Assembly (NCBI GenBank): GCA_945872065.1 | Contig: CAMBYH010000009.1 | Location: 1 to 64,000, forward strand | DNA from: Arsukibacterium tuosuense | Lineage (GTDB): Bacteria; Pseudomonadota; Gammaproteobacteria; Steroidobacterales; GCA-2729495 | Direction of reading: 5' to 3' | DNA: 64,000 bases | In this document: one piece after another, positions 7,418 through 62,455 of the stretch | Layout of the letters: every line of letters begins with the position of its first letter | Numbering within the stretch: the stretch's first letter is position 1 | Translations under genes and position numbers: made by a program | Notes under the pieces: model-generated | Databases searched by the model: none | What the model saw: the letters and a program-made list of their open reading frames with translations, nothing else | Told to the model about the DNA's origin: nothing

Positions 7418-7448
7418 GAGCGCCCGTAGGAGCGCCTTTAGGCGCGAA
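7414..7448. repeat. REP-like element, copy 3 (tandem partial plus full half)
   Basis: GTAGGAGCGCC occurs twice in tandem (7414-7424 and 7426-7436), and the second is completed by TTTAGGCGCGAA to form a hairpin. The first TAG terminates the ATPase gene. The duplicated head is like the partial head copies preceding the element at 9383. Confidence 0.75.
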
Positions 7449-7464
7449 ACACTCCGCGAACCCC

Positions 7465-8034: not shown

Positions 8035-8119
8035 CGGGATCTCCGGGCTTTCACCAGGCGGCAGATTAGCAGTTTAGCGGTAACAGGTCCGTGGCGTTCC
8101 ACACTATTATTGAGGAACA

Positions 8120-41575: not shown

Positions 41576-41655
41576 GGCATCTCTCCGGATGGCGGAATGT
41601 TGTTCCAAATGATGTATCAAAGCGGCAAGCCGGGCCAGAGGGTCCGGGAACCCGT

Positions 41656-43345: not shown

Positions 43346-45612
43346 CACCGCACCTCGTCGAGGATCGAACCCTCGGTGATGGGCCGGCCAATCGCAACTT
43401 GCAGGGCCCAGCTGTCGTTGTCCACGTAGCCCAGCGACAGGACGATGGGGCCCAGGGGCGTATTGGCTCCCAGGCTGCCGGCAAGCCCGTAGACCGCTCC
43501 ATCGTCCGCCTCGTCGATGGGTTCACCCATACGCCCGGCCTGGAGCCGCAGACCGGCGTAGATAGCCTGACCGAACAGGGACTGGATATCGGCGATCTTC
43601 CAGTTATAGCGGGTCCCCGCTACCCAGTAGCTGTCACCCCGCAACTCTCCGTACTGGAGGCCGGGAAAGGTTCGGATGCCGCCCAGCTGGAACTCCTGGG
43701 TCGGCGGCAGCTGGCCGTTGAGCCGCTTGCCGCCACCCAGAATGAAGGAGAGGGCATCCCCCCTGAAGGGGTAGAACTTGCTCAGGACCCCCTCGGCCAG
43801 GCCGTAGGACTCCTGGCCACCGAGCCACGCCCCCGAGCTTACGAGCCGTGCGTTCAGAAAAGTGCCGCGGGTTGGCAGGCTCACGTCGTTGCGGGTGTCG
43901 TAGACGAACCGGAGCTGGGCGCTGGAATCAACCTGCCTGTCGATGTTGGGGAGAACAGTTGCCCCGGTATCCCGCTGCGCTTCGAGCCAGCCGCTACGCA
44001 GCCCGGCGCGGATCTGGGCCCGGGTGCCCAGGTTCATGCCTGCATCGATCTGGCCATAGAGCTGGCGGAGTGCGTAGGTAGCAACCCTGTCGCCGTTGTC
44101 GTAGAGGTCTTCCAGATCGTTCTCGAACCTGACCAGGGGCTCGATGAAGAAGCGCTGGGGCGCATCGAGGGGCTGGTAAAGGCTGGTCTGCAGCAGCGAC
44201 TGCTGGCCGAACTGAATGGCGTTGCGCCACTCGCCGCCCCGCTGATTCAGCCAGGTCCGGTCATAGTCGGCACGAATCACGGCTTCCAGATTACCGACGC
44301 CGCTCGCCGTAAACCCCAGGTCGAAGCGCACGAATGCCGGACCCCAGGACTTTTCCACGGCCCGGATTTCCAGAGTCGTTGCTTCCGGGGGCCCGGAAAG
44401 CACGTACTCAACCCGCTCGAAATCGCCGAGCGCGTAGATCCGGGCGGTGTCGTCGACGATCTGCGCCGTGGTCACCTCCCGGCCCGGGGCAACGACCTCC
44501 AGCTGGGTGCGCACGTAGTCAGCATTGACGCGCTCAAGGCCCGTCACTTTCACTTCGGCCAGCCGCATCGGGTTACCGCTCTCCCGCTGCAACGACTGGC
44601 GCCAGGCCAGGTACTGGTCCTCCGGCAGGGCGTAACGCCGGAGTTCAGCCTCTTGTGCCAGCGCGGCTGCACGCCCAAGAGGCACGGCCTCCGGAACCCG
44701 CTCGAAGGAGGCTGAGCCGATATCGCCCATGGGCACCACGATGCTCACGTCAACCTCCGTGAGGGTGGCCACCTGAGCCTTCTGGTTGGCCTCGATCATC
44801 ACGTCCAGGGAGCGGCCGGCCAGGTCCAGCGTGGTCGTCAGGTTTTCCGGCTTCGGTGCCGGCGATTCCAGGGACACGGCGATCACCACGTCGGCGCAGA
44901 GCTCCCGGGCGATGTCCACGGGCAGGTTGCGCATCATGCCGCCGTCGGCCAGCACCTTGCCCTCCATAAGCACGGGGGAGAAGGCTCCGGGAACCGACAT
45001 GCTGGCCCGCATGGCCACCGACAGGTCCCCGTCTTCGAGCACCACCATATCGCCGGCCAGCATGTCCGTGGCCACGGCACGGAAGGGGATCGGCAAATCA
45101 TCGAAGTCCTTCGTGGACCGGGCATTGGTCACGAGACCGCGGATGACATCCTCGATGTTCTGGCTCTTGAGCAGGCCGCCACCCCCCTGCAACCGCCCAC
45201 CCTTGATGCCGAGATCAAGCCTGTTGGTGTAGGTGATGCCCGCCAGTTTCCGGTTGATGGGCGTCTGGTCCCGCGCGCCCTCGGAGCCCACAGTCCTGGA
45301 CCAGTTGATGGCCAGTACCTCCCGCTCGATTTCCTCCGGCGGCATGCCGGACGCAAAAGTGCCGCCGACGAGCGCACCCATGCTGGTGCCCACGACGCAA
45401 CTGATCGGAATACGCATCTCGTCGAGGACCCGGAGCACGCCGATGTGGGCCGCGCCCTTCGCGCCACCACCGCCGAGCACGAGGCCGATGCGGGGTCCGG
45501 CAGGGCTGACGGGTGGGACGACCTCCCCTGCGGCCACCTGGAATGCCAGTAGCAGGCTGATTGCGATCAGCCCTGATCCAACCCGAAAAGCCTGTTCAGC
45601 GTTTGCTTGCAT
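43345..45612 (-). CDS. Patatin-like phospholipase with outer-membrane barrel (PlpD-type, type Vd)
   Basis: A 755-residue exported protein. It has a signal peptide, then a patatin lipase domain: oxyanion GGGGAKG, nucleophile S77 in GTSMG, and catalytic D223 in ADGG. A POTRA-like domain follows (VKVTGLERVNADYVRTQLEV), then a C-terminal 16-strand Omp85-like barrel ending IVLSLGYVDNDSWALQVAIGRPI. This is the patatin-POTRA-barrel order of type Vd autotransporters such as PlpD. It probably hydrolyses phospholipid at the cell surface. ATG 45612 was preferred to a TTG 18 bases upstream. Confidence 0.92.
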   Translation of the reverse strand: MQANAEQAFRVGSGLIAISLLLAFQVAAGEVVPPVSPAGPRIGLVLGGGGAKGAAHIGVLRVLDEMRIPISCVVGTSMGALVGGTFASGMPPEEIEREVLAINWSRTVGSEGARDQTPINRKLAGITYTNRLDLGIKGGRLQGGGGLLKSQNIEDVIRGLVTNARSTKDFDDLPIPFRAVATDMLAGDMVVLEDGDLSVAMRASMSVPGAFSPVLMEGKVLADGGMMRNLPVDIARELCADVVIAVSLESPAPKPENLTTTLDLAGRSLDVMIEANQKAQVATLTEVDVSIVVPMGDIGSASFERVPEAVPLGRAAALAQEAELRRYALPEDQYLAWRQSLQRESGNPMRLAEVKVTGLERVNADYVRTQLEVVAPGREVTTAQIVDDTARIYALGDFERVEYVLSGPPEATTLEIRAVEKSWGPAFVRFDLGFTASGVGNLEAVIRADYDRTWLNQRGGEWRNAIQFGQQSLLQTSLYQPLDAPQRFFIEPLVRFENDLEDLYDNGDRVATYALRQLYGQIDAGMNLGTRAQIRAGLRSGWLEAQRDTGATVLPNIDRQVDSSAQLRFVYDTRNDVSLPTRGTFLNARLVSSGAWLGGQESYGLAEGVLSKFYPFRGDALSFILGGGKRLNGQLPPTQEFQLGGIRTFPGLQYGELRGDSYWVAGTRYNWKIADIQSLFGQAIYAGLRLQAGRMGEPIDEADDGAVYGLAGSLGANTPLGPIVLSLGYVDNDSWALQVAIGRPITEGSILDEVR

Positions 45613-46462: not shown

Positions 46463-46996
46463 ATGCGATCGACGCTTCTTACCCTTGTTGCTCTGGCGTT
46501 GACCACCGCCACCCTCCCCTCCCTGGCCGTTGCCCAGGGAGATCCGGCGCTTTCGGACCTCGATCAAGCCACTGAGGAAGCGCGCTCCGTGCTGCAAACC
46601 GAGCGCAAGACGATCGTCGCCCAGGGGCTAGCGCTGTCAGTGGCTGAGGAGAAGGCCTTCTGGCCCGTCTATGACCGGTACATGGCAGAGCTGAAAGTCG
46701 CCGGTGATCTGCGCCTGAAGGTGATTACCGAGTATGCTGCGAGCTACGACGACCTCAGTGACGACACAGCACGGGAGCTGCTCGCAAATTCCCTGAAGTA
46801 CCAGGAGAAGATCCTGGACATTCGCAAAAGCTACGTCCGCAAGTTCCGGCAGGTGTTGCCCGAGATCAAGCTGGCCCGGTTCTACCAGATCGAGAACAAG
46901 ATCGATGCCATTACCACTTTTGTCCTCGCCCGGGAGATTCCGCTGGTGCCTGCCGCGCCGACGTCCCAGCCCATCGCGCCGCCGGGGCGACAGTAA
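46463..46996 (+). CDS. Periplasmic helical protein of unknown function
   Basis: A 177-residue protein with a signal peptide (STLLTLVALALTTATLPSLAVA). The mature part is almost all charged alpha-helix (EEARSVLQTERKTIVAQGLALSVAEEKAFWPVYDRYMAELKVAGDLRLKVI is one region, recognisable by its ALSxAEExAFWPVYDRY motif). The layout resembles Spy/CpxP-like periplasmic proteins, but I do not see their LTxxQ motifs. The upstream in-frame extension lacks conserved sequence, so ATG 46463 was chosen. It lies 158 bases ahead of the DUF481 gene. Confidence 0.78.
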   Translation: MRSTLLTLVALALTTATLPSLAVAQGDPALSDLDQATEEARSVLQTERKTIVAQGLALSVAEEKAFWPVYDRYMAELKVAGDLRLKVITEYAASYDDLSDDTARELLANSLKYQEKILDIRKSYVRKFRQVLPEIKLARFYQIENKIDAITTFVLAREIPLVPAAPTSQPIAPPGRQ

Positions 46997-47144
46997 TCAG
47001 GGCCGGCTGCTGGAAGCCTTGAGGTTGGCTTTCTCCCAGGCGCGCACTTTCACCCGGGCGGTATCGAACAGCCGCGCGTAGTTGCCCCTGCGGACTTTTT
47101 CCCGGGCGTCCGGGGTGAGCAGCGCCCACACCTGAACGCACAGA
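46997..47144 (-). pseudogene. C-terminal remnant of an amidohydrolase-like gene
   Basis: About 48 codons on the minus strand ending at 46997: VQVWALLTPDAREKVRRGNY followed by ARLFDTARVKVRAWEKANL. The pattern L-x-P-E-A-R-x-K-I-x-x-G-N-x-A-R-L-F is the usual C-terminus of metal-dependent amidohydrolases of the amidohydrolase_2 type. Everything upstream is gone; the DUF481 gene begins on the other strand 10 bases past the break. This is a deletion scar. Confidence 0.68.
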
Positions 47145-47154
47145 GACCGCAGCT

Positions 47155-48288
47155 ATGCTCCAGCGCATCCCGCCAGCCTGGTACCGGCTTTGCGCTGGAC
47201 AGTGGGACTCCACTAAATCGCCTGAGGAAGTCCGGGGCGTTGGTTGCGCAATCCTTGGCGCCCTCCTCTGCGTCTTTGCGACCCCCGCTCTCGCCCGGGA
47301 CAAGACCGACATCGTATACCTGCGCAACGGGGACCGGGTGACCTGCGAGATCAAGCGCCTGGAGCGCGGCCGGCTGGAGGTGAGCACCAACGGCATGGGC
47401 ACCGTATATATAGAGTGGGACGACATCGAACGGGTCACCAGCACAGAGCTCTATATCGTGGAACTGGCGAATGGCACCCGCTTCGAGGGCACCCTGGCCG
47501 CGACGGACGCCCAGGGCCAGCTGGTCCTGCGCAAGCAGGGCGAAGCGGATGGGGCGGACAGTGTCGGGGAGCAGGCGCTGGACATGGAGGACGTGGTCTG
47601 GGTAGATCCGCTGAAGCTGGACGCCCGGCGCATCAATCGCTGGGACGGCTCGGTGAGCGCCGGTTTTGATGCGACGAAAGCCAATAGTGACAAGTCGCTG
47701 AGCGCCAGCTTCGACGCCCGGCGGCGAGCCGAAAACTTCCAGCTCAGCTTCGACGGCTCGGTGTACTCCCGCTCCCAGGACGGCACGGAGGACAGCCTCC
47801 GGGCCAACTTCAACGGTGTGTACCGGGGCCTGCTGGAGGATCGCTGGTACTGGGCCGGGCTGGGCGGCCTGGAGCGCAACGACGAACTGGGTATCGATCT
47901 GCGCTCCTTTGGTGGTGCGGGCTATGGGCGCTTTCTGGTCCAGTCGAGCCGGGCACTCTGGTCGGTCACCGGCGGCCTCGTGGTCGTGAACGAGCAGCTG
48001 GCGGGTGAATCCCAGGGTGACACCAACCTGGACGCATTGCTCAATACCGACTTTGAGTTCTTCACCTACGACTCGCCGAAGACGACCCTGAAGACCTCCC
48101 TGGCGGTTTTCCCCCGCCTGACCGGCGATGGGGGAGTCCGCCTGGACCTGGATTTCAGCGTCCGCCAGGAGCTAATCACGGACCTTTTCCTGGAGCTGAG
48201 CCTCTACGGAACCTACGACAGTACACCGCCCGAAGACGGGACGTCGAACGATTGGGGTATCGTGACCGGACTGGGCTATACGTTCTGA
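47155..48288 (+). CDS. DUF481 outer-membrane-type protein
   Basis: A 377-residue exported protein. A signal segment (AILGALLCVFATPALA, residues about 31-46) follows an unusually long n-region, so the true start may lie downstream, although no better start codon is evident. An SH3-like domain (DIVYLRNGDRVTCEIKRLERGRLEVSTNGMGTVYIEWDDI) precedes a DUF481 beta-rich barrel (WDGSVSAGFDATKANSDKSLSASFDARR ... WGIVTGLGYTF). DUF481 proteins are induced by salt or stress in related bacteria, as I recall; the role here is unknown. Confidence 0.84.
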   Translation: MLQRIPPAWYRLCAGQWDSTKSPEEVRGVGCAILGALLCVFATPALARDKTDIVYLRNGDRVTCEIKRLERGRLEVSTNGMGTVYIEWDDIERVTSTELYIVELANGTRFEGTLAATDAQGQLVLRKQGEADGADSVGEQALDMEDVVWVDPLKLDARRINRWDGSVSAGFDATKANSDKSLSASFDARRRAENFQLSFDGSVYSRSQDGTEDSLRANFNGVYRGLLEDRWYWAGLGGLERNDELGIDLRSFGGAGYGRFLVQSSRALWSVTGGLVVVNEQLAGESQGDTNLDALLNTDFEFFTYDSPKTTLKTSLAVFPRLTGDGGVRLDLDFSVRQELITDLFLELSLYGTYDSTPPEDGTSNDWGIVTGLGYTF

Positions 48289-48335
48289 CCGCCCGACGAC
48301 AGGAAATACACACCAGGACTGACCGACGACGAGCA

Positions 48336-48584
48336 GTGCTTCGCTGCAGGGGCCTGGCAGCCGTGGTGATCGCGATCTTTTCCCTCGGTGCCATGGCGGG
48401 TGCAAGCGCCGGCGCTGGGGCCAGTGATGTACCGCCCCTCACGGACCCGCCCACCGGCACCTGGCAGCGGGGCAAGCTGGTGTGGATTGACCTCGTGACC
48501 GTCGATCTGCCTGCGGCCCGGCGCTTCTACGGCGCCCTGTTTGGCTGGACCTTTACCGACAGCGGCACTGGCCGGGGCCGCTGA
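48336..48584 (+). pseudogene. Truncated exported VOC-family (glyoxalase fold) protein
   Basis: A frame of 82 codons from GTG 48336: signal peptide LAAVVIAIFSLGAMAGASAGAGA, then GKLVWIDLVTVDLPAARRFYGALFGWTF, the first strand-helix of a VOC domain. It then runs into a stop after TDSGTGRGR. Intact VOC proteins need at least about 120 residues and this group usually has two domains, so most of the protein is lost. It lies between DUF481 and another disrupted gene. Confidence 0.72.
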
Positions 48585-48597
48585 CGGCGGGAATGTG

Positions 48598-49008
48598 ATG
48601 GTGGCGAGACACGCTGCGCACCCGGGGACTTCGTGGCTCTCGCTGCGCCCGTCGCCAGCCCTGTCACTGGTCATCCTGGTCCTCTGCACCAGCTGCGGTG
48701 GCAACTCGGTGGCGACCGACCAGGCCTTCGCCGATAGCCTGATCACCCGCGAACTGCAGCCACCGCTGACCTTCGAGGAGGTCCGCACGGTACTCGCCCG
48801 CCATGGCGCAAACCCCGTCCTGCAAAAGGGCTGCAGCCTGGTCAAGAGCACGCACGCGGACTGCGTCTACAGCAGCATCACCCTGATTCTCCTCCCCCGC
48901 AATCACTGGTGACGGGGTCAGGGCGACCTGCAGATCGCCATGGAATCCGATGTGCAGGAGCAGCTGCTTTCCGTGGAGTACGAGCTGACTTACCCGGGTA
49001 ACCGGTAG
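48598..49008 (+). pseudogene. Small lipoprotein gene interrupted by an in-frame TGA
   Basis: From ATG 48598 the frame encodes a lipoprotein signal (LSLVILVLCTSC), then LITRELQPPLTFEEVRTVLARHGANPVLQKGC. It meets TGA at 48910-48912 after RNHW. The same frame then stays open for 31 codons (RGQGDLQIAMESDVQEQLLSVEYELTYPGNR) to a TAG. The downstream part is protein-like and finishes the fold plausibly, so a nonsense mutation (for example from TGG or CGA) is likely. The family is unknown. Confidence 0.65.
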
Positions 49009-49016
49009 CGGGGTTT

Positions 49017-50879
49017 CTAGGGCGCGTCCGGGCCAGAAGATCCCGCCGAGCCTGAGAGTTCGGCCAGAGCGCGTTCCACTTCCTCATCGGACATCGCATC
49101 GATCTCCCGCTCGAGAACGACAGTAGCGTCGCGCTCACCGGCTTTCGCCCGCTCGACAGCCTGGACAAGTTCCGCGATGGTCGGGTGATGGAACAGCGCG
49201 GTGGCGACGAGCTCCACGCCCTGCGCCCTGCTGATCGCAGCAGCGGCACGGATGCCGCTCAGCGAGTCACCACCCAGGGCGAAAAAGTTGTCGTCCAGAC
49301 CCAGGCGGCTGACGCCGAGGATCGTGCGCAGGACGGACTCAATCGAGCGTTCGATATCGGTGGTCGGGGGCCTGAAATCCACGGCGAGCAGCGGTCCCAG
49401 GCGCTTTTCCAGCGAGCTGCGCTGGATCTTTCCGGTGGTTCCCTTGGGAATCTCGTCGACGAAAATGATACGGGACGGGATCTTGTAGCCGACCAGCCGG
49501 GCGAAGAGGAAGTCGCGGAGCGCTGGTGCATCGAGGTGCGAGCCGGCTTTGCGTACCACCACAGCGACCAGGTCCTCGCCCAGCGTCGGATGGCCAACGC
49601 CAAACGCGGCGGCCTCGGCAACTTCCTGGTGCTCCAGCAGGGCTTCATCCACCTCCCGGGGCGAGACCTTTTCGCCGCCGCGATTCACGACTTCCTTCAG
49701 ACGCCCGGTAATGAACAGGTAGCCCTCCGGATCGAGGCGACCCAGATCGCCCGTGCGAAACCACCCGTGGGTAAAGGCAGTGACAGTCTTCCCGGCCTCG
49801 CCGCCGTAGCCGGACAGAACCCCGGGGCCGCGAATCACCACCTCGCCGGCCTGTTCCGCCCCCAGGAGATTTCCGGCGTCGTCCATGATGGCAATCTCCG
49901 CGCCGGCCGGCAGCCCGACGGAACCCGGCTTCCGCAGCCCGGGCGGCAACGGATTGCTGGCCATCTGGTGGGATGCTTCGGTCATGCCATAGGCCTCGAT
50001 GACGGGAGCGCCGGTGCCTGCTTCGAGCAGGCGCATCGTTACGGGCGACAGTGCCGCCGACGACGAACGGACAAAGCGGAAGCGGTGCCGGGGCAGTCGA
50101 CTGCGATACTGGTCAGCCATCGACGCCACAACCTGATGAATGGTCGGCACGGCGGAGTACCAGGTCGGCTGAAACTCCTCGACCCAGGCGAGAAACGCGG
50201 CAGCACTGAAGCCCGGCGCACAAACCACGCTCGACCCTGCCGCGAGTGACGACAGCAGAACCCCGACCAGCCCGTGAATATGGAAGAGTGGCATGACGTT
50301 CAGGCAACGATCAGCAGGCTCCAGCGCCAGACCCTGCGCGATGTTGCGCGCCGATGCCAGCAGATTGGCCTGGGTGAGTGGCACGAGCTTGGGCTTGGAT
50401 GTCGTTCCCGAGGTGTGCAGGATCAGGGCGATGTCGCCGGGATCCGGGTAGGACGCAGGGATCATGGCCGGTGACCCGACGGTCAAGGCGGATCCTGCCC
50501 CGATCTCCACCACGGTGAGGCCCAGGTCCCGCGCTGTCTGCCGCACAGGGCTATCGAGATCCTGGTCCAGGACGACGAACCGGACCCGTGCGTCCTCCAG
50601 ATAGAAGCGCATTTCCTCGGCAGGCAACGCAACGTTGAGCGGCACGCACGTAAAGCGCGATACCACGCCGAGAAAACCAAGCGCCGCCCCAGGCCCATTC
50701 GGCAGCACTGTCGCCACGGGCACCCCGGGCGTCGCGCCTGCCGCAGCCAGGCGGTCAGCCAGAACCTGCACCTGCTGCCACAAACCGGCGTAGGTCTGGG
50801 GCAAGCACCGCGGCGCAAGCAGAGCCATCGCTTCCGGTTGCTCCCGGGCCCGGGTTTCGAGAAGCGCTGCCAGGATCAT
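49017..50879 (-). CDS. Acyl-AMP ligase fused to a carrier protein (PCP/ACP)
   Basis: A 620-residue two-domain protein. Residues 1-510 form an ANL adenylating enzyme: P-loop LHTSGTTSKPKLV, YGMTEAS, WFRTGDLGRLDPEGYLFITGRLKEVVNRGG, and catalytic lysine in KGTTGKIQRSS. Residues about 530-600 form a carrier domain with the phosphopantetheine serine in NFFALGGDSLSG. It most likely activates a fatty or other carboxylic acid and loads it onto its own carrier, to start the peptide built by the NRPS at 52541. It is divergent from the flippase-NRPS unit (157-base gap). Confidence 0.9.
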   Translation of the reverse strand: MILAALLETRAREQPEAMALLAPRCLPQTYAGLWQQVQVLADRLAAAGATPGVPVATVLPNGPGAALGFLGVVSRFTCVPLNVALPAEEMRFYLEDARVRFVVLDQDLDSPVRQTARDLGLTVVEIGAGSALTVGSPAMIPASYPDPGDIALILHTSGTTSKPKLVPLTQANLLASARNIAQGLALEPADRCLNVMPLFHIHGLVGVLLSSLAAGSSVVCAPGFSAAAFLAWVEEFQPTWYSAVPTIHQVVASMADQYRSRLPRHRFRFVRSSSAALSPVTMRLLEAGTGAPVIEAYGMTEASHQMASNPLPPGLRKPGSVGLPAGAEIAIMDDAGNLLGAEQAGEVVIRGPGVLSGYGGEAGKTVTAFTHGWFRTGDLGRLDPEGYLFITGRLKEVVNRGGEKVSPREVDEALLEHQEVAEAAAFGVGHPTLGEDLVAVVVRKAGSHLDAPALRDFLFARLVGYKIPSRIIFVDEIPKGTTGKIQRSSLEKRLGPLLAVDFRPPTTDIERSIESVLRTILGVSRLGLDDNFFALGGDSLSGIRAAAAISRAQGVELVATALFHHPTIAELVQAVERAKAGERDATVVLEREIDAMSDEEVERALAELSGSAGSSGPDAP

Positions 50880-50929
50880 CTTCGGGATTACCTCAAAGGT
50901 CGAACAGACATCACATTCCGGCGGTTTGG

Positions 50930-50946
50930 CGCCCGGAAACCGGGCG
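50930..50946. other. Tight hairpin in the divergent promoter region
   Basis: CGCCCGG, loop AAA, CCGGGCG: a perfect seven-base stem with a three-base loop, in the gap between the ligase and the flippase. It could be an operator, attenuator or 5'-UTR structure for either transcript. A TATTCTAT sequence about 20 bases downstream could be a -10 for the flippase-NRPS transcript. Confidence 0.35.
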
Positions 50947-51036
50947 GGTTTCCCTTGGTGAAGGGTATTCTATGGGACCCATGACGCCACCTCTCAATCT
51001 CACAAAAGGGCTCGGCCACGCAGTGGCCCGGGGGCC

Positions 51037-52536
51037 ATGACGTCGGTCAACAGCCGCATGGCGACCGGCGCCGCCTGGATGGTCCTCCTGCGGATCAGCG
51101 ATCGGACCATCGGTCTCATCAGCACGGTCGTCCTGGCCCGCCTGTTGATGCCGGGAGACTTTGGTCTGATCGCCATTGCCGCCGCCGTGATCGGCATGCT
51201 CGAAGTGCTTGGGGCGGTCGGCCTCGACGTGGCGCTGATCCAGCGGGCCGACGCACGGCGGGCGCACTTCGATACGGCCTGGACCTTCCACATCCTGTTT
51301 GGGCTCGCTGTAGCATTGGTGGTGGCAGGCATTGCCCAGCCGGTCGCTGCCTTCTACGCCGACCCACGCCTGGTTGGGGTCATGCTGATGCTTGCCGCAA
51401 CTTCGGCACTCCAGGCACTTGAGAACATCGGCGTGGTCACCTTCAGGAAGGAGCTCGAGTTCGACAGGGAGTTCCGCTACCGCATCACTCAGCGTGTGCT
51501 CACGACCTTCGTGGTGACGATGCCTCTGGCGTTCACGCTCAAGAACTACTGGGCGCTCCTGTTCGGCAGCCTGGCAGGCGCCGCCATCAAAGTGGTTCTG
51601 AGCTACCGTCTCCACCCATATCGACCCCGGTTCTCCCTCGCGGCCCTGGGGGAACTCATGGCGTTCTCGAAGTGGTACCTGATCACCAGCATCATCGAGT
51701 ATGTCTACGGGCGAATGACGGGTCTGATCATCGGCAAGTGGGCTGGCGTGGCGGCGGTGGGCACCTATACGCTCGCAGACGAAATCGCCACCCTGGCCAC
51801 CCGGGAGATCTCCGCGCCGGTGCAACGGGCGGTATTCCCCGGCTACGCCAAGATCGCGGGTGACCGGCAGGAGTTGCGCCGCGTATTCCTCAAAGTCAGC
51901 TCCATTCTGCTCCTCATCGTCCTGCCCAGCGGCATTGGCATCGGCCTGCTGGCCGAGCCGATCGTCCTGGTTGTCCTTGGGGCAAAATGGGAGGCAGCCA
52001 TTCCACTGGTCCAGGTGCTCGGGCTGAACGGAATACTCACGGTTTTGCTCAGCACCGGTCACTATCTCAACCTGGCCGTCGGCATGGCGCGCTCAACCAG
52101 CCTGGTGCTCGGGGCCCATGTGGCGATCACCATTCCACTCGTGCTCTGGTCAGTGCGCGACTATGGCGCGCAGGGCGCGGTCGTAGCGATGCTGGTCGCC
52201 TCCCTGCTGATCACCCCCTTCAACTACTACCTGGTCTCCAAGGCAGTCAACTTCGGCTGGGTCGAACTCAGAAATCTGATGTGGCGCCCCCTGGTGGGTG
52301 GCCTGGTCATGAGTGGCGTCATCATTACCCTTCAGCAGCAGTGGCCACTGCCGTCCGGCACCCCGATGCAGCTTGCCTATGCGGTAGTTCTTGCCGCGAC
52401 TGGCGCCGTCACCTATGGCGCAACGGTCTATCTACTCTGGCGCCGGGGCAGCGACCCGGACAGCGGGGAGGCCTGGATGCTGGAACGTGCAGCGGCGCTT
52501 GTCGGTCTGTCCCCCGCCCAATTGGGACTCCGCTAG
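51037..52536 (+). CDS. MOP-superfamily flippase (Wzx/polysaccharide_synt type)
   Basis: A 499-residue inner-membrane protein with about 12-14 helices. N-terminus MATGAAWMVLLRISDRTIGLISTVVLARLLMPGDFGLIAIA is the conserved Wzx/RfbX start with the LLxPxDFG motif. FSKWYLITSIIEYVYGRMTGLIIGKWAG and YTLADEIATLATREISAPVQRAVFPGYAKI also match. Such proteins flip lipid-linked oligosaccharides. Four bases ahead of the NRPS, it is probably the exporter of, or works on, the NRPS product. No glycosyltransferase lies in the window. Confidence 0.9.
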   Translation: MTSVNSRMATGAAWMVLLRISDRTIGLISTVVLARLLMPGDFGLIAIAAAVIGMLEVLGAVGLDVALIQRADARRAHFDTAWTFHILFGLAVALVVAGIAQPVAAFYADPRLVGVMLMLAATSALQALENIGVVTFRKELEFDREFRYRITQRVLTTFVVTMPLAFTLKNYWALLFGSLAGAAIKVVLSYRLHPYRPRFSLAALGELMAFSKWYLITSIIEYVYGRMTGLIIGKWAGVAAVGTYTLADEIATLATREISAPVQRAVFPGYAKIAGDRQELRRVFLKVSSILLLIVLPSGIGIGLLAEPIVLVVLGAKWEAAIPLVQVLGLNGILTVLLSTGHYLNLAVGMARSTSLVLGAHVAITIPLVLWSVRDYGAQGAVVAMLVASLLITPFNYYLVSKAVNFGWVELRNLMWRPLVGGLVMSGVIITLQQQWPLPSGTPMQLAYAVVLAATGAVTYGATVYLLWRRGSDPDSGEAWMLERAAALVGLSPAQLGLR

Positions 52537-52540
52537 GTCA

Positions 52541-55500
52541 ATGGAACAGCCAGTCCAGCCCGGCAGTGCGGGCATCCCACCCTCGCGGCGGCAACTGCTG
52601 CTGGAACTGCGCCTTCGGCAACAGCAGGCGGACAAGGCCGGCGCGACACTCAAACCCCGCACGAACCAGGCCCCGGCGCCCCTGACTCACACCCAGCGGC
52701 GCGCCTGGTTTCTCGCGCAGCTTGATCCCGACAGCATTGCCTACCATGAGGCCCGGGCCTATCACCTCAGCGGCCGTCTGGACATCACCGTGCTGAAGGA
52801 ATGCCTTCTCGCCCTGATCACACGTCACGAGATCCTGCGCACGACCTTTGTAATGATCGGTGACGAGCCCGGGCAGTTAGTGCACGACGAGCCCGCCGTT
52901 GATCTGGAAGTTCTCGACCGGACATCGCGAGACGGCCTGGAGCGTGGGTCGGTCCTCGCCGAGACGCTCGCTGAAGCGACGCGGGAATCCTTCGATCTTG
53001 TCCGGGGCCCGCTACTGCGCCTGCGGGTTATTCGCCTTGGCGAGAATGACCACGTGCTGCTGCGGATCTGGCACCACATCAACTCGGATGGCTGGTCCGC
53101 GCAGGTCTTCGACCGTGAGCTCTCAGCGCTCTACAACGGACAGCTGGCCGGGCAGCCAACGCAGTTGCCCGCACTACCGATCCAGTACGCGGACTACGCA
53201 GTCTGGCAACGCCAGTGGCTGGCCGGACCGGTGCTCGAGCAGCAACTGGGCTACTGGCGGACGCAGCTCGCCGGGCTGGCCACGCTGGAACTGCCCACGG
53301 ACCGGACCCGGCCAGCGCTGCAGAGCTACCAGGGGGCCCGGCTGGACATCACGCTGCCCGGCACTGTGGGCGAAAGACTTCGGGCGCTGAGTCGCAGGTC
53401 AGGCGCCACGCCATTCATGACCGGGCTGGCCGCCTTCAACGTACTGCTATACCGCTACAGCGGCACGACGGACGTTGCGGTTGGCACGCCCATCGCCGGG
53501 CGGAGCCAACTCGAACTGGAAGGCCTCATCGGCTTCTTTGCCAACACCCTGGTGCTGCGCACCGACCTGTCCGGGGGCCCCACCTTCCGCCAGCTCCTGG
53601 CCCGGGTGCGGGACGGTGCCCTGGACGCGTATTCCCATCAGGACGTGCCCTTCGAGAAGCTGGTGGAAGTCCTGGCCCCGGCCCGTGACCTCTCCCGGAA
53701 CCCGCTCTTCCAGGTGTGCTTCGCGCTGCAGAACCTGGCGGGCAGCAACCTCCAGTTGCCAGGACTCGAGGTCGCACGCCTCGACCTGCCGACCACCCAG
53801 GCGAAGTTTGACCTGTCCCTCGACTTGCGGGACAGGGACGGCGTGCTGGACGCCAGCTTCGAGTACTGCACGGACCTCTTCGACCGGGAAACGATTGAGC
53901 GCCTGGCGCGGCACTTCACCGTTCTGCTGGACTCTTTGCTGGCTGATCCCGATCAGTGCATCGACACAGTGCCGTTGCTCGACGCGGAAGAACGGCAGCG
54001 ACTGCTCGTGGACTGGAACGCCACCGCGCGGAACTACCCGCTGCACCTGTGTACCCAGGAACTGTTCGAGGCCCAGGTGCGGCAGACACCAGCAGCCGTC
54101 GCGTTAGTCCACGCCAAGCGGCACGTGACCTACGCCGATCTCAACCGGCGCGCCAACCAGCTGGCCCACCGGCTTCGCGAACTGGGTGTCGGACCGGACG
54201 TCCTCGTGGGCGCCTGCCTGGAGCGCTCCGTCGAGCTGCTGGTCGCCTTTTTCGGCATCCTCAAGGCAGGCGGTGCCTGGTTGCCACTGGACCCGGACTA
54301 TCCGGCAGAGCGGCTGGCCTTTATGGTCCGGGATAGCGCGGCGGGAGTGCTCCTCACGCAGGGCGCCGGTACCGATCTGATGCGGGGGTTGCCGGCGTCG
54401 CTGAACGTGTTGCGCCTGGATGCGGACTGGCCTCTCCTCGCCAGCTATCCGGACACTGACCCGCCGGTGGTGAACTCACCCGACGACATTGCCTACGCCA
54501 TCTATACCTCGGGATCCACCGGCCAGCCCAAGGGCGCGCTGATTCCCCATCGCGGCCTCTGCAACCACGTGCACTGGTTCAACGAGATCCTGGCCACCGG
54601 CCCGCAGGATCGGCTGCTCCAGAATACGTCCATCGGCTTCGACGCTTCGATCTGGACATTCATCGTGCCATTGACTGCGGGCGCGACGATCGTGCTCGCC
54701 CAGCCGGGCGGCCAGCGGGATAACGGCTATATCGTGCGCACCATCAGTGAGGAGGCCATTACCCTGGCGCAGGCCGTGCCCTCGCAGCTGCAGGCCCTGG
54801 TGGCGGAGCCCGGGCTTGGCACCTGCCGCTCCCTGCGCTACATGCTCGTTGGTGGTGAAGCCCTCGCGTCTGATCTGGCCGCCGACTTCCAGCGCCTGCT
54901 ACCCACCACCACCCTGGGCAACTTTTATGGCGCCACCGAAGCGAGCGACGACTCCACCCGCTTCGAGCTCGGCTCCGCGCCGTTTTCCACACCGACAGTG
55001 CCCATCGGCCGGCCGATGGCCAACGCGCAGTGCTACATCCTCGATGGCCACCGGTCGCCCGTGCCCATAGGCGTTACCGGGGAACTCTACGTGGGGGGTT
55101 ACGGCCTGGCGCGGGGCTACCTGAACCGCCCGGACCTCACGGCGGAGCGCTTTGTTCCCCATCCGTTCCGGGCCGGGGAGCGCCTCTACCGGACCGGCGA
55201 CTTCTGCCGCTACCTGGCCACGGGCGACATCGAGTACCTGGGGCGGGGCGATCAGCAGATCAAGCTGCGCGGCTTTCGCATCGAGGTCGGCGAAATCGAG
55301 GCGGCGCTCCGGGACTGCGCGGGGGTCCGGCACTGCGTAGTGATGGTGCGGGAAGACCAGCCCGGGCTGCAGCGCCTCGTGGCCTACGTGGCCGGCGAGC
55401 AGCTGACGACGGCCGCACTGCTTGGCCAGCTGAAGGCCGGGCTGCCGGACTACATGGTGCCCACGGCGATCGTCCTCCTCGACCCGCTCCCGCGCCTGCC

Positions 55501-58500
55501 CAACGGCAAGCTCGACCGCCGCGCCCTGCCCGTGCCGGACTACCAGCAGCTGGGAACCCAGGGCGGTTACGTGGCGCCGGGGACGGCGATGGAGAGCCTG
55601 ATTGCCGACGTCTGGGCCGAATTGCTGGGACTGCAGCGCGTGGGTGTGCACGACGACTTCTTCGCGCTGGGCGGGCACTCGCTGCTGGCCGGGCAGCTGG
55701 CGGCGCGACTGGTCAGGGTAACCGGGGTGGAGTTGCCCCTCCGGCGGATCTTCGAAAGCCCCACCGTCGCCGGCCTCGCACGCGACATCGAGGGACGCCG
55801 GCGGGCAGACCCGACGGCCCATTCCCAGCCAATTCTCCCGGCGGCACGGACTGGCCCACTGCCCCTCTCTTTCGCCCAGCAGCGACTGTGGTTCATCGAG
55901 CAGCTGAGTCCGGGCACCAGCACCTACAGCCTGCCCACGGTCCTGCGCCTGCGGGGCGTGCTGCAAAGGCAGGCCTTGCTTGAGTCCCTGACCGTTCTGA
56001 TCGCCCGGCATGAGTCCTTGCGGACGCGCCTCGCCATTGTCGAGGGCGAAGCCCACCAGGTCATCGGTGCTGCAGGCCCCGCGGTCCTCATGGAGGAGGA
56101 CCTTCGGGCACTGGGCGAGCGGGCGGCGGGAGATCGCGCCGGAGAACTCGCGGTGGACGAAGCGGAGCGCCCCTTTGATCTGGTGCGTGGGCCCTTGTTC
56201 CGCGTGCTCCTGATCCGGCTGACCGAACAGGAGCACCTGCTGGTGATCAACCAGCACCACATCATCTCCGATGGCTGGTCGATCGGCGTGTTCGAGCAGG
56301 AACTGTCAGCGCTGTACAACGGACAGTTGGCCGGTCAGCCGGCGCAGTTGCCCGCGCTGCCGATCCAGTACGCGGACTACGCAGTCTGGCAACGCCAGTG
56401 GCTGGCCGGACCGGTGCTCGAGCAGCAACTGGGCTACTGGCGGACGCAGCTCGCCGGGCTGGCCACACTGGAGCTGCCCACCGACCGGCCCCGGCCAGTG
56501 CTGCAGAGCTACCGGGGTACGCGGCTGGACGTGGTCCTGCCGGGCCCGGCCAGCGCGCAACTCCGGGCCCTGGGTCGCAGCGCTGGCACGACGCTGTTCA
56601 TGACCGGGCTGGCCGTCTTCAAAGTTCTGCTGTATCGCTACAGCGGCACGACGGACATTGTGGTCGGCACACCCATCGCCGGGCGGGGCCACACAGAGAT
56701 CGAGGGACTGATCGGCTTCTTCGCCAACACGCTGGTGCTGCGCACGAATCTTTCCGGGGCCCCCAGGGCCCCCACCTTCAGGCAACTGCTCGCCCGGGTC
56801 CGGGAAACGGCCCTGGGAGCGTACAGCCACCAGGATCTGCCCTTCGACAAACTGGTGGAAGATCTCGCGCCGGTGCGTGACCCTTCCCGCAATCCCCTTT
56901 TTCAGGTGTGTTTTGCCCTCGTCGAGGAGCAGGCACGCACCCTGCAACTTGCTGGACTCGAGCTGGACCATGTCCCTGCAGGCACCGAACAGTCGAAGTT
57001 TGACCTCACGTTGACGCTGGCCGAACGCCCTGGCGAGCTCCAGGCGCACTTCGAGTACTGCACTGATCTGTTCGAGCGGGACACGATCGAACGGCTGGCC
57101 AGGCACTTCGGTGTTTTGCTCGAAGGACTGCTGGCGAACCCGGACCAGAGCATCGACACACTACCCCTGATGAGCAATGCCGAGCGTCAGCAGCTCATCG
57201 AGGTGGGCAACGAACCGGCACTGGCGGCCACCGGGGACCAGACTCTGGCCGGGTTGTTCGAGGTTCAGGTACAGCGTGCGCCCGATGCCGTCGCGGTGAC
57301 TGACGGGAACCAGGCACTGACCTACGCCCAGCTCAACGGCCGGGCCAACCAGCTGGCCCACTTTCTCCGCGCCCGCGGCGTTGGCCCCGGCGTCACCGTG
57401 GCCCTCTGCCTGGAGCGCAGCCTCACACTGATCGTCGGGCTTATGGGCATCGTCAAGGCGGGCGGCGCCTACCTGCCGCTGGATGCCGATCAGCCGGTCG
57501 AGCGCCTGGCTTTGCTGCTGGCAGACTCGGGGGCGCAGCTGGTGCTCACGCAGACAGCGCTGCTCGGGCGCCTGCCCACTGACGCTGGCCGGCACGTCTG
57601 CCTGGACCAGGACTGGCCAGAGATTGCCGCGTGCGGCACCGGCCCTGTGTCAGTGGTGAGCACTCCCCGGGAACTGGCCTATATCATCTACACCTCCGGC
57701 TCGACCGGCACCCCGAAAGGCGTGGCAGTCCGGCAGGAAGGCGTCATCCGGCTCGTGATGCAGCCCAACTACGTGGACCTCGGACCCGGAGACACTCTGG
57801 CCCAGGTGGCCAACATCGCCTTCGACGCAGCAACCTTTGAGATCTGGGGCGCGCTCCTGAACGGTGCGCGCCTGACGATACTGCCCCGGGACACCATCCT
57901 GTCACCACCCGCGTTCGTGGCAGCACTGCGGGCGAACGGCATTTCCTGCCTGTTCCTCACCACTGCCCTCTTCAACCGGGTGAGCAGCGAAATCCCCGAC
58001 GCCTTCAGGTCGCTGCGTCACGTGCTCTTCGGCGGAGAGGCCTGCGACCCGGACCAGGTCCGGGCGGTGATGCGGGCAGGCCCGCCCACGCGCCTCGTCC
58101 ACGTCTATGGCCCTACCGAGACCACGACGTTCGCAACTTTTCATGTCGTGAGCGCCCACGAAGACCGCGCGACGATCCCCATCGGCGGTCCGATCAGCGG
58201 CACACAGATCCTGCTGCTTGATGTCCATGGCGAGCTGGTGCCAACCGGGGTGGTGGGTGAGATCCATATTGGCGGACCGGGCGTGGCCGCGGGCTACGTC
58301 AATCGGCCAGTGGAAACCTGGGCGCGATTCGTCCCCTCACCGCTCGACCCTGCCGGCAATACCCTGCTGTACCGGACCGGGGACCTGGCCCGCTGGCTCC
58401 CGGAAGGCGAACTCGAGTTCCTCGGCCGGAACGACGATCAGGTGAAGATCCGGGGCTTTCGCATTGAGCCTGCAGAGATCAGCACCCTGCTTGCCACCCA

Positions 58501-59920
58501 CCCCCAGGTGCGCGCCTGTCACGTCCTGGCGCGGCAACAGCCGGGCGGCGAGCTCGGCCTGATCGCCTACGTCGTGCCCGGGACCGGTGAGCAACCCGCC
58601 CCGGCCGAACTGCGCGCCTTCCTTGCCGAGCGACTCCCCGCGCACATGGTGCCTCTGGCATTCGTGCCCCTCACCGCACTGCCCCTGACCCCGAACGGCA
58701 AGATCGATAGCCGGGCCTTGCCGGAACCGCAGGGCCGCGATGTCCGGGAGCCCGGCGCCTATGCCGCACCCCGGGACGCCATTGAGCGGATGCTGTGCCA
58801 GGTCTGGTCGCAGGTACTCAAGATCGAGCAGGTGGGCCTGGACGACAACTTTTTCGAGATTGGCGGCCACTCGCTCCTGGCCGCGAAACTGTTTGCCCGG
58901 CTGGACGAGGCCACTGGCCAGTCTCTGACTCTCGGTGTTCTGTTCAGCGCGCCGACGGTGCGCCAGCTCGCGGAACGCTACCGGCACTTGTCCACGCTGA
59001 GCAATGCGCCGGCGCAGGCACTGGTAGCACTGCGGCGGGAAGGCACGCGGCCACCCCTGTATTTTCTGCCTGGCGTTTTCGGCAACGTGGTGGGCTATGC
59101 GGATTTCGTGCGTGCACTCGGCGCTGACCAGCCTGTCTATGGCTTGCAGGCGCTGGGCCTCGATGGGCGTACCGCGCCCTTAGACTCTATCGAGGCAATG
59201 GCCAGCCACTACCTGACCGAGATTCGCGTACAGCAGGCCTACGGCCCCTACGCCCTTGTCGGCGCCTGTTTCGGCGCCACGGTGGCTTATGAAATGGCCC
59301 GCCAGCTCCTGGCGACCGGTGAGGTGGTCGCGTTCCTCGGGCTGATCGCGCCAACTGGCCGGGAGGGTGATGAAGCCGGAGAACCGCTGATGCGGGCCCC
59401 ACGCGCCGTCCGGCGTGCAGTGGCCCTGGCGAACCTGGTGCGCGAACGGCTGCAGGTGTATCTGCAGGACATGCGGGGCCAGAGCCTTAGGTCGCGCCTC
59501 CGCTACCTGGCGGGCAAGGTGCAGTCGCTCAGCAGCACGGCAGTCCAGCCCCATGGGTTGAAAGGCGCTGAACGGGAACTCAATCAGCTCGAAGTCTATC
59601 GGGCCAACCTGCAGGCCCTGGACAGCTACCTGCGACTGCCGCTGACCGGTCCGCTGGTGGCCTTCGAAATCCTGGAGACGAGACCAGCAAGTCCTGCTGT
59701 CAAGGCGGTAACCAACGCGTCCGGCATCGGTTGGCAGGAATACTGGCAGGGTCCCCTGCCTGTGCATTACCTGCCGGGCCGGGATTCGGGGGACATGCTG
59801 GCCGGCGCCAATGCCGCCCAAGCCGCCCGGGTGCTGAATGAAAGACTGCGTGCTGCCTTCGAGCGGTCGGTCAACGCAGCTTCGGCATCACCTGCTCGGC
59901 AAACAGACGCGTCTGCCTGA
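52541..59920 (+). CDS. Two-module non-ribosomal peptide synthetase, C-A-PCP-C-A-PCP-TE
   Basis: A 2459-residue cytosolic synthetase. C1 is at about residues 47-480 (HHINSDG at H178). A1 is 490-1000 (YTSGSTGQPKG near 656), PCP1 has Ser1047 in GGHSLLA, C2 is 1108-1550 (HHIISDG at H1239), A2 is 1567-2065 (YTSGSTGTPKG near 1717), PCP2 has Ser2111, and TE is about 2160-2430. My hand-read specificity codes are DAWQLGFDDK for A1 (polar; Gln-like at best) and DAFFLGVTFK for A2 (Ile/Val-like); both are tentative. A condensation domain at the N-terminus implies an acyl donor, probably the ligase-PCP at 49017. The TE has Cys2243 (GACFGA) for the usual Ser, and the expected Asp and His are absent. ATG 52541 lies four bases after the flippase stop. 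Confidence 0.95.
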   Translation: MEQPVQPGSAGIPPSRRQLLLELRLRQQQADKAGATLKPRTNQAPAPLTHTQRRAWFLAQLDPDSIAYHEARAYHLSGRLDITVLKECLLALITRHEILRTTFVMIGDEPGQLVHDEPAVDLEVLDRTSRDGLERGSVLAETLAEATRESFDLVRGPLLRLRVIRLGENDHVLLRIWHHINSDGWSAQVFDRELSALYNGQLAGQPTQLPALPIQYADYAVWQRQWLAGPVLEQQLGYWRTQLAGLATLELPTDRTRPALQSYQGARLDITLPGTVGERLRALSRRSGATPFMTGLAAFNVLLYRYSGTTDVAVGTPIAGRSQLELEGLIGFFANTLVLRTDLSGGPTFRQLLARVRDGALDAYSHQDVPFEKLVEVLAPARDLSRNPLFQVCFALQNLAGSNLQLPGLEVARLDLPTTQAKFDLSLDLRDRDGVLDASFEYCTDLFDRETIERLARHFTVLLDSLLADPDQCIDTVPLLDAEERQRLLVDWNATARNYPLHLCTQELFEAQVRQTPAAVALVHAKRHVTYADLNRRANQLAHRLRELGVGPDVLVGACLERSVELLVAFFGILKAGGAWLPLDPDYPAERLAFMVRDSAAGVLLTQGAGTDLMRGLPASLNVLRLDADWPLLASYPDTDPPVVNSPDDIAYAIYTSGSTGQPKGALIPHRGLCNHVHWFNEILATGPQDRLLQNTSIGFDASIWTFIVPLTAGATIVLAQPGGQRDNGYIVRTISEEAITLAQAVPSQLQALVAEPGLGTCRSLRYMLVGGEALASDLAADFQRLLPTTTLGNFYGATEASDDSTRFELGSAPFSTPTVPIGRPMANAQCYILDGHRSPVPIGVTGELYVGGYGLARGYLNRPDLTAERFVPHPFRAGERLYRTGDFCRYLATGDIEYLGRGDQQIKLRGFRIEVGEIEAALRDCAGVRHCVVMVREDQPGLQRLVAYVAGEQLTTAALLGQLKAGLPDYMVPTAIVLLDPLPRLPNGKLDRRALPVPDYQQLGTQGGYVAPGTAMESLIADVWAELLGLQRVGVHDDFFALGGHSLLAGQLAARLVRVTGVELPLRRIFESPTVAGLARDIEGRRRADPTAHSQPILPAARTGPLPLSFAQQRLWFIEQLSPGTSTYSLPTVLRLRGVLQRQALLESLTVLIARHESLRTRLAIVEGEAHQVIGAAGPAVLMEEDLRALGERAAGDRAGELAVDEAERPFDLVRGPLFRVLLIRLTEQEHLLVINQHHIISDGWSIGVFEQELSALYNGQLAGQPAQLPALPIQYADYAVWQRQWLAGPVLEQQLGYWRTQLAGLATLELPTDRPRPVLQSYRGTRLDVVLPGPASAQLRALGRSAGTTLFMTGLAVFKVLLYRYSGTTDIVVGTPIAGRGHTEIEGLIGFFANTLVLRTNLSGAPRAPTFRQLLARVRETALGAYSHQDLPFDKLVEDLAPVRDPSRNPLFQVCFALVEEQARTLQLAGLELDHVPAGTEQSKFDLTLTLAERPGELQAHFEYCTDLFERDTIERLARHFGVLLEGLLANPDQSIDTLPLMSNAERQQLIEVGNEPALAATGDQTLAGLFEVQVQRAPDAVAVTDGNQALTYAQLNGRANQLAHFLRARGVGPGVTVALCLERSLTLIVGLMGIVKAGGAYLPLDADQPVERLALLLADSGAQLVLTQTALLGRLPTDAGRHVCLDQDWPEIAACGTGPVSVVSTPRELAYIIYTSGSTGTPKGVAVRQEGVIRLVMQPNYVDLGPGDTLAQVANIAFDAATFEIWGALLNGARLTILPRDTILSPPAFVAALRANGISCLFLTTALFNRVSSEIPDAFRSLRHVLFGGEACDPDQVRAVMRAGPPTRLVHVYGPTETTTFATFHVVSAHEDRATIPIGGPISGTQILLLDVHGELVPTGVVGEIHIGGPGVAAGYVNRPVETWARFVPSPLDPAGNTLLYRTGDLARWLPEGELEFLGRNDDQVKIRGFRIEPAEISTLLATHPQVRACHVLARQQPGGELGLIAYVVPGTGEQPAPAELRAFLAERLPAHMVPLAFVPLTALPLTPNGKIDSRALPEPQGRDVREPGAYAAPRDAIERMLCQVWSQVLKIEQVGLDDNFFEIGGHSLLAAKLFARLDEATGQSLTLGVLFSAPTVRQLAERYRHLSTLSNAPAQALVALRREGTRPPLYFLPGVFGNVVGYADFVRALGADQPVYGLQALGLDGRTAPLDSIEAMASHYLTEIRVQQAYGPYALVGACFGATVAYEMARQLLATGEVVAFLGLIAPTGREGDEAGEPLMRAPRAVRRAVALANLVRERLQVYLQDMRGQSLRSRLRYLAGKVQSLSSTAVQPHGLKGAERELNQLEVYRANLQALDSYLRLPLTGPLVAFEILETRPASPAVKAVTNASGIGWQEYWQGPLPVHYLPGRDSGDMLAGANAAQAARVLNERLRAAFERSVNAASASPARQTDASA
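53177..53283. repeat. 107-base identical segment in C1 (pairs with 56360-56466)
   Basis: Encodes PIQYADYAVWQRQWLAGPVL and on to GLAT in the first condensation domain. It is identical base for base to 56360-56466 in the second condensation domain, while flanks diverge to roughly 80-90 percent. Such perfect patches in otherwise diverged modules are the mark of recent gene conversion or recombination. Confidence 0.9.
56360..56466. repeat. 107-base identical segment in C2 (pairs with 53177-53283)
   Basis: Second copy of the identical stretch, within the second condensation domain, 3183 bases downstream in direct orientation. A recombination between the copies would delete or duplicate exactly one module (1061 codons, in frame). 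Confidence 0.9.
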
Positions 59921-60940: not shown

Positions 60941-62308
60941 CTAGTGCGCACCGAGACCCAGCGTACTGGATGAGCGGGATTCACTGGGATCGATTTTCAC
61001 GGGCCGGCCACTGCGCAGCCATACGATCAGTGCAAAGGCGAAAGCGGCCAGGTTTGCCAGGCCCACCAGGATGATGGGACCCGAGATCCGCCAGTAGTCG
61101 AACAGAAAGCCCCCCACGAAGCTGGTGACGAGGATGCCCACCGAGCCACAGAACCCGGCAAGGCCGATCACGGAGCCCCGGACGTTCACGGGAGTCTCCT
61201 GGCCCAGCAGACCCGTAACGGACAGGATCACGCTCATCTGGCCGATACCCACCAGCATGCAACCGAGGTAGCCGAGGGGCGAGAACGGGTGTTCCTGGAC
61301 GCCAAGCAGCGTGTAGCCCACCGCGCCGAGCAGCAGGGCTCCCACCACGCAGGCCAGCCGGTGAAAGCGATCGATGAGATACCCCGCCACGGGCGCCCAC
61401 AGGAGGGCCGTGCCCTGGATGAGCGCAAACAGGAGGCCGGCCTTCGCCAGCGCCTCGGGCCCATCGAGGCCCTCATCCCGCGCGACGCGCTGCAGCCAGA
61501 GGGACACGAAGGTGGCCACGAGGGTCAGGTCCGCCCGGGAAATGAACGAGCCTGCATAGCAGACCAGCAGCCTGGGATTCTCCCGGCCCTGCTGCACACC
61601 AATCTCGATGACCCGACGCAGGCTTAACCGGGCGCTGACGCCGGTTGGGGTCCCGCCCTTCAGGCCCCACTGCATCATCAGCGCCGTAAACGCCGCCAGA
61701 CCGGCCATGACAAACAACATGTAGCGCCCGGCATCCGCGCTGCTCAGCCCCTGAGCCTGAAAGACCGCAGGGAGCGTCGCAAAGAGCGCCGTGGCCAGGC
61801 CAATACCGAGGCCATTGAGCACTCCGCTGGCACCGGCCAGCTTGCCCCGGGACTCTTCGGCCGGGTAGTCGGCCGCCGTCACGGCGATCATCACGCCAAC
61901 GCCAGCCAGACCAACAGCGTAGATGAACCGGCCGACGTAGAGATCCGCCACGCTGTTGGCGAGGCCGTACACGGCGAAGCCGGCGCCGGCAATCAGCGTG
62001 CCTGCCGCGTAGATCGGCCGGCGGCCAACCCGGTCAGACAGACCGCCCGCAAAGCTCACCAGAAGCAGCACCACGATCTCGTGCATGGTGATGAGCAGGC
62101 CGGTCACCTGGCCGTGCTTCGCCGGGGGTATCCCGATCATTTCGGTCAGGACGTAGGGCTGGGAGAAGCTGAGAAAGCTGATGACCGGCATGATGGCCAT
62201 GCAGACGTATAAGTAGGTCCAGGCGTTGCGCCCGGTCATGCCCGTGGCGAATTCGATGGGTCCCAGCCGGTAGCCGGGCGCGGCGGCGGCAGACAGTGTG
62301 TTGCTCAA
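60941..62308 (-). CDS. MFS transporter
   Basis: A 455-residue, 12-helix permease: GQVTGLLITMHEIVVLLLVSFAGGLSDRVGRRPIYAAGTLIAGAGF contains the MFS loop GGLSDRVGRRP. The central cytoplasmic loop is between helices 6 and 7 (KGGTPTGVSARLSLRRVIEI). No ATG opens the frame; TTG 62308 with GGAG nine bases upstream is the best start, giving SNTLSAAAAPGYRLG. Drug or metabolite efflux is likely. It ends 36 bases ahead of the LLM gene on the same strand, so they may form a unit. Confidence 0.88.
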   Translation of the reverse strand: MSNTLSAAAAPGYRLGPIEFATGMTGRNAWTYLYVCMAIMPVISFLSFSQPYVLTEMIGIPPAKHGQVTGLLITMHEIVVLLLVSFAGGLSDRVGRRPIYAAGTLIAGAGFAVYGLANSVADLYVGRFIYAVGLAGVGVMIAVTAADYPAEESRGKLAGASGVLNGLGIGLATALFATLPAVFQAQGLSSADAGRYMLFVMAGLAAFTALMMQWGLKGGTPTGVSARLSLRRVIEIGVQQGRENPRLLVCYAGSFISRADLTLVATFVSLWLQRVARDEGLDGPEALAKAGLLFALIQGTALLWAPVAGYLIDRFHRLACVVGALLLGAVGYTLLGVQEHPFSPLGYLGCMLVGIGQMSVILSVTGLLGQETPVNVRGSVIGLAGFCGSVGILVTSFVGGFLFDYWRISGPIILVGLANLAAFAFALIVWLRSGRPVKIDPSESRSSSTLGLGAH

Positions 62309-62455
62309 GGTTCTGGTCTCCGTGTCCGCAGCAGGGTCAGGGGTGCTGGGCGGAGTATGGCGCAGGAGTCCCCGGGCCCGCACAGGGGTTACAGTTTGTT
62401 ACAGTCACCCGTCCGGTGCGCGGATAACGTTTCGCCAGCTGTCAGGAGAATGCTC

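Follow-up and report, generated by a model that had tools for sequence, protein, structure and literature searches.

A ligase-carrier protein of the oxalyl-CoA synthetase family as putative loading module of a dimodular nonribosomal peptide synthetase

Stand-alone ligase-carrier proteins load fatty acids in some pathways. In PvdL-type lipopeptide initiation, a fatty acyl-AMP ligase (FAAL) with its ACP supplies the cap to the first condensation (C) domain, which is a starter C domain. Oxalate, in turn, is activated by the oxalyl-CoA synthetases (OXS; AAE3/Pcs60 family), of which AtAAE3 (5IE0-5IE3), LsOCS (6QJZ) and yeast Pcs60 (8AFF) have been solved; we presume that the AAE3 residues H214, S289 and H319 contact the oxalate. 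N-oxalyl amino acids are within reach of AAE3-type enzymes: LsAAE3 was proposed to form oxalyl-AMP that is used for ODAP synthesis (PMC9935904). Compounds of this kind can be bioactive, as is the case for beta-ODAP of grass pea.

The locus described here lies in a stretch of 64,000 nucleotides, referred to below as the window. It resembles PvdL-type initiation in that a ligase with a carrier would supply a non-amino-acid cap to the first C domain, but the ligase is of a different family and C1 falls outside the FAAL-linked C domains. ORF calls and Pfam matches bore out the three genes of the initial annotation and the order of their domains, with the following features:

49017 to 50879, minus strand: ligase-PCP protein, putative loading protein, 620 aa (ORF; Pfam AMP-binding, AMP-binding_C and PP-binding)
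49428 to 50861, minus strand: ligase domain, oxalyl-CoA synthetase family (Pfam limits, alignment)
49155 to 49343, minus strand: PCP of the loading protein with GGDSL site (PF00550, residues 513-575; motif)
50880 to 51036, no strand: divergent intergenic region, 157 bp, with two terminator-like stems
51037 to 52536, plus strand: MOP/Wzx-family flippase, 499 aa (Polysacc_synt_3, 2.5e-74)
52541 to 59920, plus strand: dimodular NRPS, 2459 aa (ATG 5 bp past the flippase stop)
52676 to 54025, plus strand: C1 (Pfam; sister of the C domain behind the fused ligase-PCP of locus L093)
54065 to 55540, plus strand: A1, code DAWQLGFDD(K), tentatively polar (specificity code)
55598 to 55783, plus strand: PCP1 (Pfam)
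55841 to 57205, plus strand: C2 (Pfam; 64% identity between C1 and C2)
57221 to 58720, plus strand: A2, code DAFFLGVTF(K), Ile/Val-like (specificity code)
58766 to 59005, plus strand: PCP2 (motif)
59021 to 59917, plus strand: atypical thioesterase (TE) with Cys codon at 59267-59269 (GACFG), GRDSGDML and a predicted alpha/beta-hydrolase TE fold

The NRPS most likely starts at the ATG at 52541, giving 2459 aa rather than the 2509 aa of the maximal frame. Since this start lies just behind the flippase stop (TAG, 52534-52536), flippase and NRPS probably form one transcription unit; a sigma-70 consensus was not found in the 157-bp region between ligase and flippase. Two Condensation, two AMP-binding, two PP-binding and one Thioesterase domain are arranged as C-A-PCP-C-A-PCP-TE up to position 59920, and the core motifs are intact in C1 and C2 (HHxxxDG), in both A domains and in all three PCPs of the locus (GGDSL/GGHSL), as expected of a type I NRPS. 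As noted before, neither a regulator nor a glycosyltransferase is present beside the locus. The host genome (2.7 Mb, 130 contigs) contains PPTase genes and two further NRPS regions, on contigs C17 and C42.

Among PDB entries, the ligase best matched the oxalate-CoA ligases from Arabidopsis (385 bits), grass pea (382 bits) and yeast (333 bits); LgrA (223 bits, in two stretches) and malonyl-CoA synthetase (199 bits) came next, whereas solved fatty-acyl ligases reached at most 196 bits. The AF2 model of the ligase (mean pLDDT 80) gave 5ie0, 5ie3, 5ie2, 6qjz and 8aff, all of them OXS, as best Foldseek matches, with about 40% identity to the plant enzyme in the Foldseek alignment. The best NCBIfam match, 'FadD7 family fatty acid-CoA ligase', remained far under its cut-off (403 of 650), and the ligase was not closest to fatty-acyl ligases of the FAAL or fatty acyl-CoA ligase loader type in PDB, NCBIfam or Foldseek comparisons. 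In a tree built without the longest branches, it was placed inside the OXS family, bracketed by plant and yeast OXS and by bacterial standalone OXS (93/95, 91/94); the placement was less clear in the tree keeping all long branches. Judged by closest sequence and predicted fold, the ligase is thus an enzyme of the oxalyl-CoA synthetase family and not a fatty acyl-AMP ligase. It lies on a long branch outside the crown of bacterial OXS (98/97), for which reason its substrate may have shifted. Unlike the solved OXS, it carries a C-terminal carrier domain and adjoins an NRPS, and the fused PCP suggests that the acyl acceptor is this carrier rather than CoA.

The active site was compared over 43 OXS-specific columns. 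To count as such, a residue had to show at least 97% conservation across a set of 37 panE-linked OXS and the three characterised enzymes, and to be almost missing in an outgroup of malonyl type. Of these columns, 34 are kept in the window ligase and nine differ. Its residues H200, S274 and H304 align with H214, S289 and H319 of AtAAE3, and the OXS motifs PLFHxHGL, WYxAVPTxHQ, RSxS and TEASHQMASNPLPP are retained, so that it shares fold, family and the conserved active-site signature, including the H319 equivalent, with the solved OXS. Thirteen further relatives that possess a carrier domain, or one resembling it, keep only 12 to 27 of the 43 columns, and none of the 13 has H319.

Standalone bacterial relatives that share 46-54% identity with the window ligase occur widely. 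Of 47 distinct loci with a standalone OXS, 38 have a panE-like (oxalyl-CoA reductase-like) gene within about 1.5 kb of it, among them the locus on contig C19 that encodes the host genome's own enzyme. As PanE of Methylobacterium interconverts oxalyl-CoA and glyoxylate (PMC9485241), this genomic context supports an oxalyl-CoA function of the bacterial OXS clade. Several relatives have an aminotransferase beside panE/OXS, whose nearest NCBIfam models, all under cut-off, include an aspartate-glyoxylate enzyme. Oxalyl-CoA decarboxylase, not found in 30 relatives, was rejected as the OXS partner in this bacterial group in favour of panE. The ORFs beside the OXS of locus L088 are probably antisense ORFs.

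We regard oxalate as the leading substrate of the loading protein. The main rival is a shift of the ligase to a different small acid, be it malonate-like, a hydroxy or keto acid or an unsaturated short one, in which case the product would be a non-oxalyl N-acyl dipeptide. Such a drift would fit the long branch, the nine differing columns and the absence of His319 from the other carrier-fused ligases of the group, a loss that makes a substrate shift look common after carrier fusion; the window ligase has, however, kept intact the shared motifs of the OXS clade that surround the presumed acyl pocket, and we consider drift possible rather than probable.

Further OXS-related ligase-PCP proteins with differing C-terminal parts were seen in L089, L090 and L025, which suggests that small-acid ligases linked to a carrier form a wider set. 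A scan of viral contigs returned a single OXS-like contig, an IMG/VR entry listed as viral (L042) and possibly cellular, whose ligase reads TETASQ, not TEASHQ.

The initial annotation had the ligase and its own carrier feed C1, and this is well supported by locus L093 from a soil Betaproteobacteria MAG (VBCA01000006.1), the one close relative that turned up when genome contigs were scanned with the flippase as query. In L093, a flippase 59% identical to that of the window is directly followed by one protein of the order ligase-PCP-C-A-PCP-TE and then by a PPTase-like gene (assigned by eye). The view that ligase, flippase and NRPS form one system is supported. The two loci have in common a related flippase, C1 (60% identity), PCP2 (74%), a Cys-type TE (52%) and the order flippase then NRPS; L093 differs in that its ligase-PCP is fused to the NRPS, in having one module fewer and in a pocket that is not OXS-like. 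As the L093 ligase lacks the OXS signature, oxalate is not a prerequisite of the conserved system. The C domain of L093 is the sister of C1 (96/97) with C2 next (100/99), although the AU test did not exclude a grouping of C1 with C2 (p 0.09). Since this sister domain is fused to a ligase-PCP, C1 most likely takes its cap from the ligase-PCP of the window, and a non-amino-acid donor is also in keeping with its position as N-terminal C domain.

In a tree of 70 C domains, C1 and C2 fell in an LCL-like group, apart from the C domains that follow epimerisation domains and from those behind FAAL loaders, so that C1 does not join the acyl-specific starter clade as defined by the latter. The initial annotation had named, as a case against itself, a C1 of a non-starter clade supplied by another NRPS; the first part agrees with what we found, the second is countered by L093. 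We consider it very improbable that the ligase-PCP serves another pathway and that C1 receives its donor from the NRPS of C17 or C42: two more NRPS regions do exist in the genome, that of C42 running off the contig end, and C1 is LCL-like, but the sister C domain stands in cis to a ligase-PCP in L093 and the C17 region has a TE of its own.

The arrangement of a ligase-PCP ahead of a C domain recurs outside the order. OXS-type ligase-PCP heads longer NRPS proteins in seven genomes of another genus, one of these proteins being ligase-PCP-C only. The ligase-PCP-C-A-PCP-C proteins of genus g181 (L082, L083, L085-L087) follow the same loading logic as the window locus, as does L091, where ligase-PCP and C-A-PCP are split into separate proteins. 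Unlike in the window ligase, the H319 equivalent is replaced in the ligases of g181 and L091, and a flippase is absent beside these loaders in the stretches checked. Among 396 genomes of the window's order, OXS-type ligase-PCP modules were found in the host genome only.

The specificity codes of the A domains were read with a segment of GrsA as ruler; at other loci the same procedure gave well-known codes, among them DVWHFSLID and DILQLGLIW. The code of A2 (DAFFLGVTF) supported the Ile/Val-like assignment made before, and that of A1 (DAWQLGFDD) points, with some uncertainty, to a polar residue. A C1 fed by a ligase-PCP, together with a dimodular NRPS, upholds the predicted N-acyl dipeptide, whereas its acyl group was not upheld as a fatty acid in view of the ligase family and of the position of C1. 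As the cap loader is built like oxalic-acid-activating enzymes, the product is likely an oxalyl-type peptide and not a lipopeptide.

Our preferred reading, to which we assign a probability of roughly 0.55, is that the NRPS is primed by an oxalate-type loading module and that its N-oxalyl dipeptide is exported by the flippase. The ligase domain would adenylate oxalate, or an acid of similarly small size, and hand the acyl group not to CoA but to the Ppant arm of the PCP fused to it. C1 would condense this group with the module 1 amino acid, C2 would add the Ile/Val-like residue, the Cys-type TE would release or transfer the N-oxalyl dipeptide, and the flippase, encoded directly upstream of the NRPS, would carry the product through the inner membrane. 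Should the loader take oxalate, a starter unit would be added to NRPS chemistry and a catabolic ligase would be seen to have turned into a biosynthetic loading module; a literature search of partial coverage found no paper describing an oxalate-loaded NRPS. Annotation pipelines would also be warned against calling every NRPS-adjoining ligase-carrier protein a lipopeptide loader.

Loading of a fatty acid, which would give a lipodipeptide that is lipid-anchored or built into an envelope polymer, is improbable in our view. The flippase belongs to the MOP/Wzx family, with a Polysacc_synt match over most of the protein that stays under the curated cut-offs of specific NCBIfam models, and this family generally moves lipid-linked substrates; ligase-carrier proteins with fatty acids as substrates are also known. 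Set against this are the bit scores of the ligase, nearly twice as high for OXS as for any solved fatty-acyl ligase, the weak FadD7 match and a C1 that is not among the C domains behind FAAL-type loaders. Fatty-acid loading was rejected on ligase family and pocket, and with it the lipid-anchored product that had been put forward loses its main basis. From its co-occurrence with an NRPS in only two loci, that of the window and L093, the flippase may export the NRPS product. It was rejected as an order-wide partner, its best homologues in the 396 genomes being at most 42% identical. Literature on NRPSs together with Wzx proteins yielded nothing useful.

The usual GxSxG reads GACFG in this TE, and the DHxxML seen in the ordinary TEs used for comparison is replaced by GRDSGDML. 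Of the type I triad (Ser/Cys-Asp-His), the Cys is present and the His is missing at its usual site; the Asp kept by the L093 TE is absent as well, and the predicted fold is that of an ordinary TE (pLDDT 73). Like the TEs of SulM (sulfazecin) and ObiF (obafluorin), it has a Cys nucleophile on a small-peptide NRPS, but those enzymes keep the catalytic His and Asp (PMC11298585). With Cys for Ser and without the usual His, product release is uncertain. The Cys/DSGxML form is common to L093 and the NRPS of contig C17, which makes it a conserved subtype rather than a fresh lesion; a search for this subtype in 369 genomes of the class found it in the host genome only. The second NRPS of the host that ends in this TE type is located at 4986-9140 on the minus strand of L144 (G000, C17).

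In the closest genome, G007, the flanking genes on both sides are conserved at about 90% DNA identity, and some 340 bp stand in place of window positions 46990-59713. What is left of the NRPS there is a scar, its final ~200 bp, at about 90% DNA identity (L158, 7161-7370). As this 3' remnant stands beside matching flanking genes, the locus was most likely present in the common ancestor and deleted in G007. A recent horizontal insertion was rejected on account of this scar and of a locus composition like that of the rest of the window. The deletion in G007 would also suit a locus that is decaying or inactive, with a defective TE that no longer releases the product, as would the lack of Ser, His and, in the window, Asp in the TE. 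We hold such decay to be improbable too, given that L093 and the C17 NRPS have the same TE form and that all other motifs and frames are intact.

Beyond the N-oxalyl dipeptide of this locus, one may think of an oxalate-starter NRPS family whose N-oxalyl peptides a His-less Cys TE releases onto an acceptor and a flippase of the polysaccharide type transports. We put this forward as a doubtful generalisation; if true, the peptides could be metal chelators or 2-oxoglutarate mimics.

Elsewhere in the window, the adjacent ORFs at 41656-42441 and 42482-43348 (both minus strand) correspond to the C-terminal and the N-terminal portion, respectively, of a single sulfate permease (PF00916 plus STAS); the gene may be split or frameshifted, or the assembly may be wrong here. 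Tandem DUF3604 paralogues are encoded at 37711-39609 and 39641-41713 (both minus strand). The ORF at 60941-62383 (minus strand) encodes an MFS transporter whose best NCBIfam match, the magnetosome transporter MamH, is far under cut-off (153 of 300 bits) and whose homologues in the genus are 60-96% identical.
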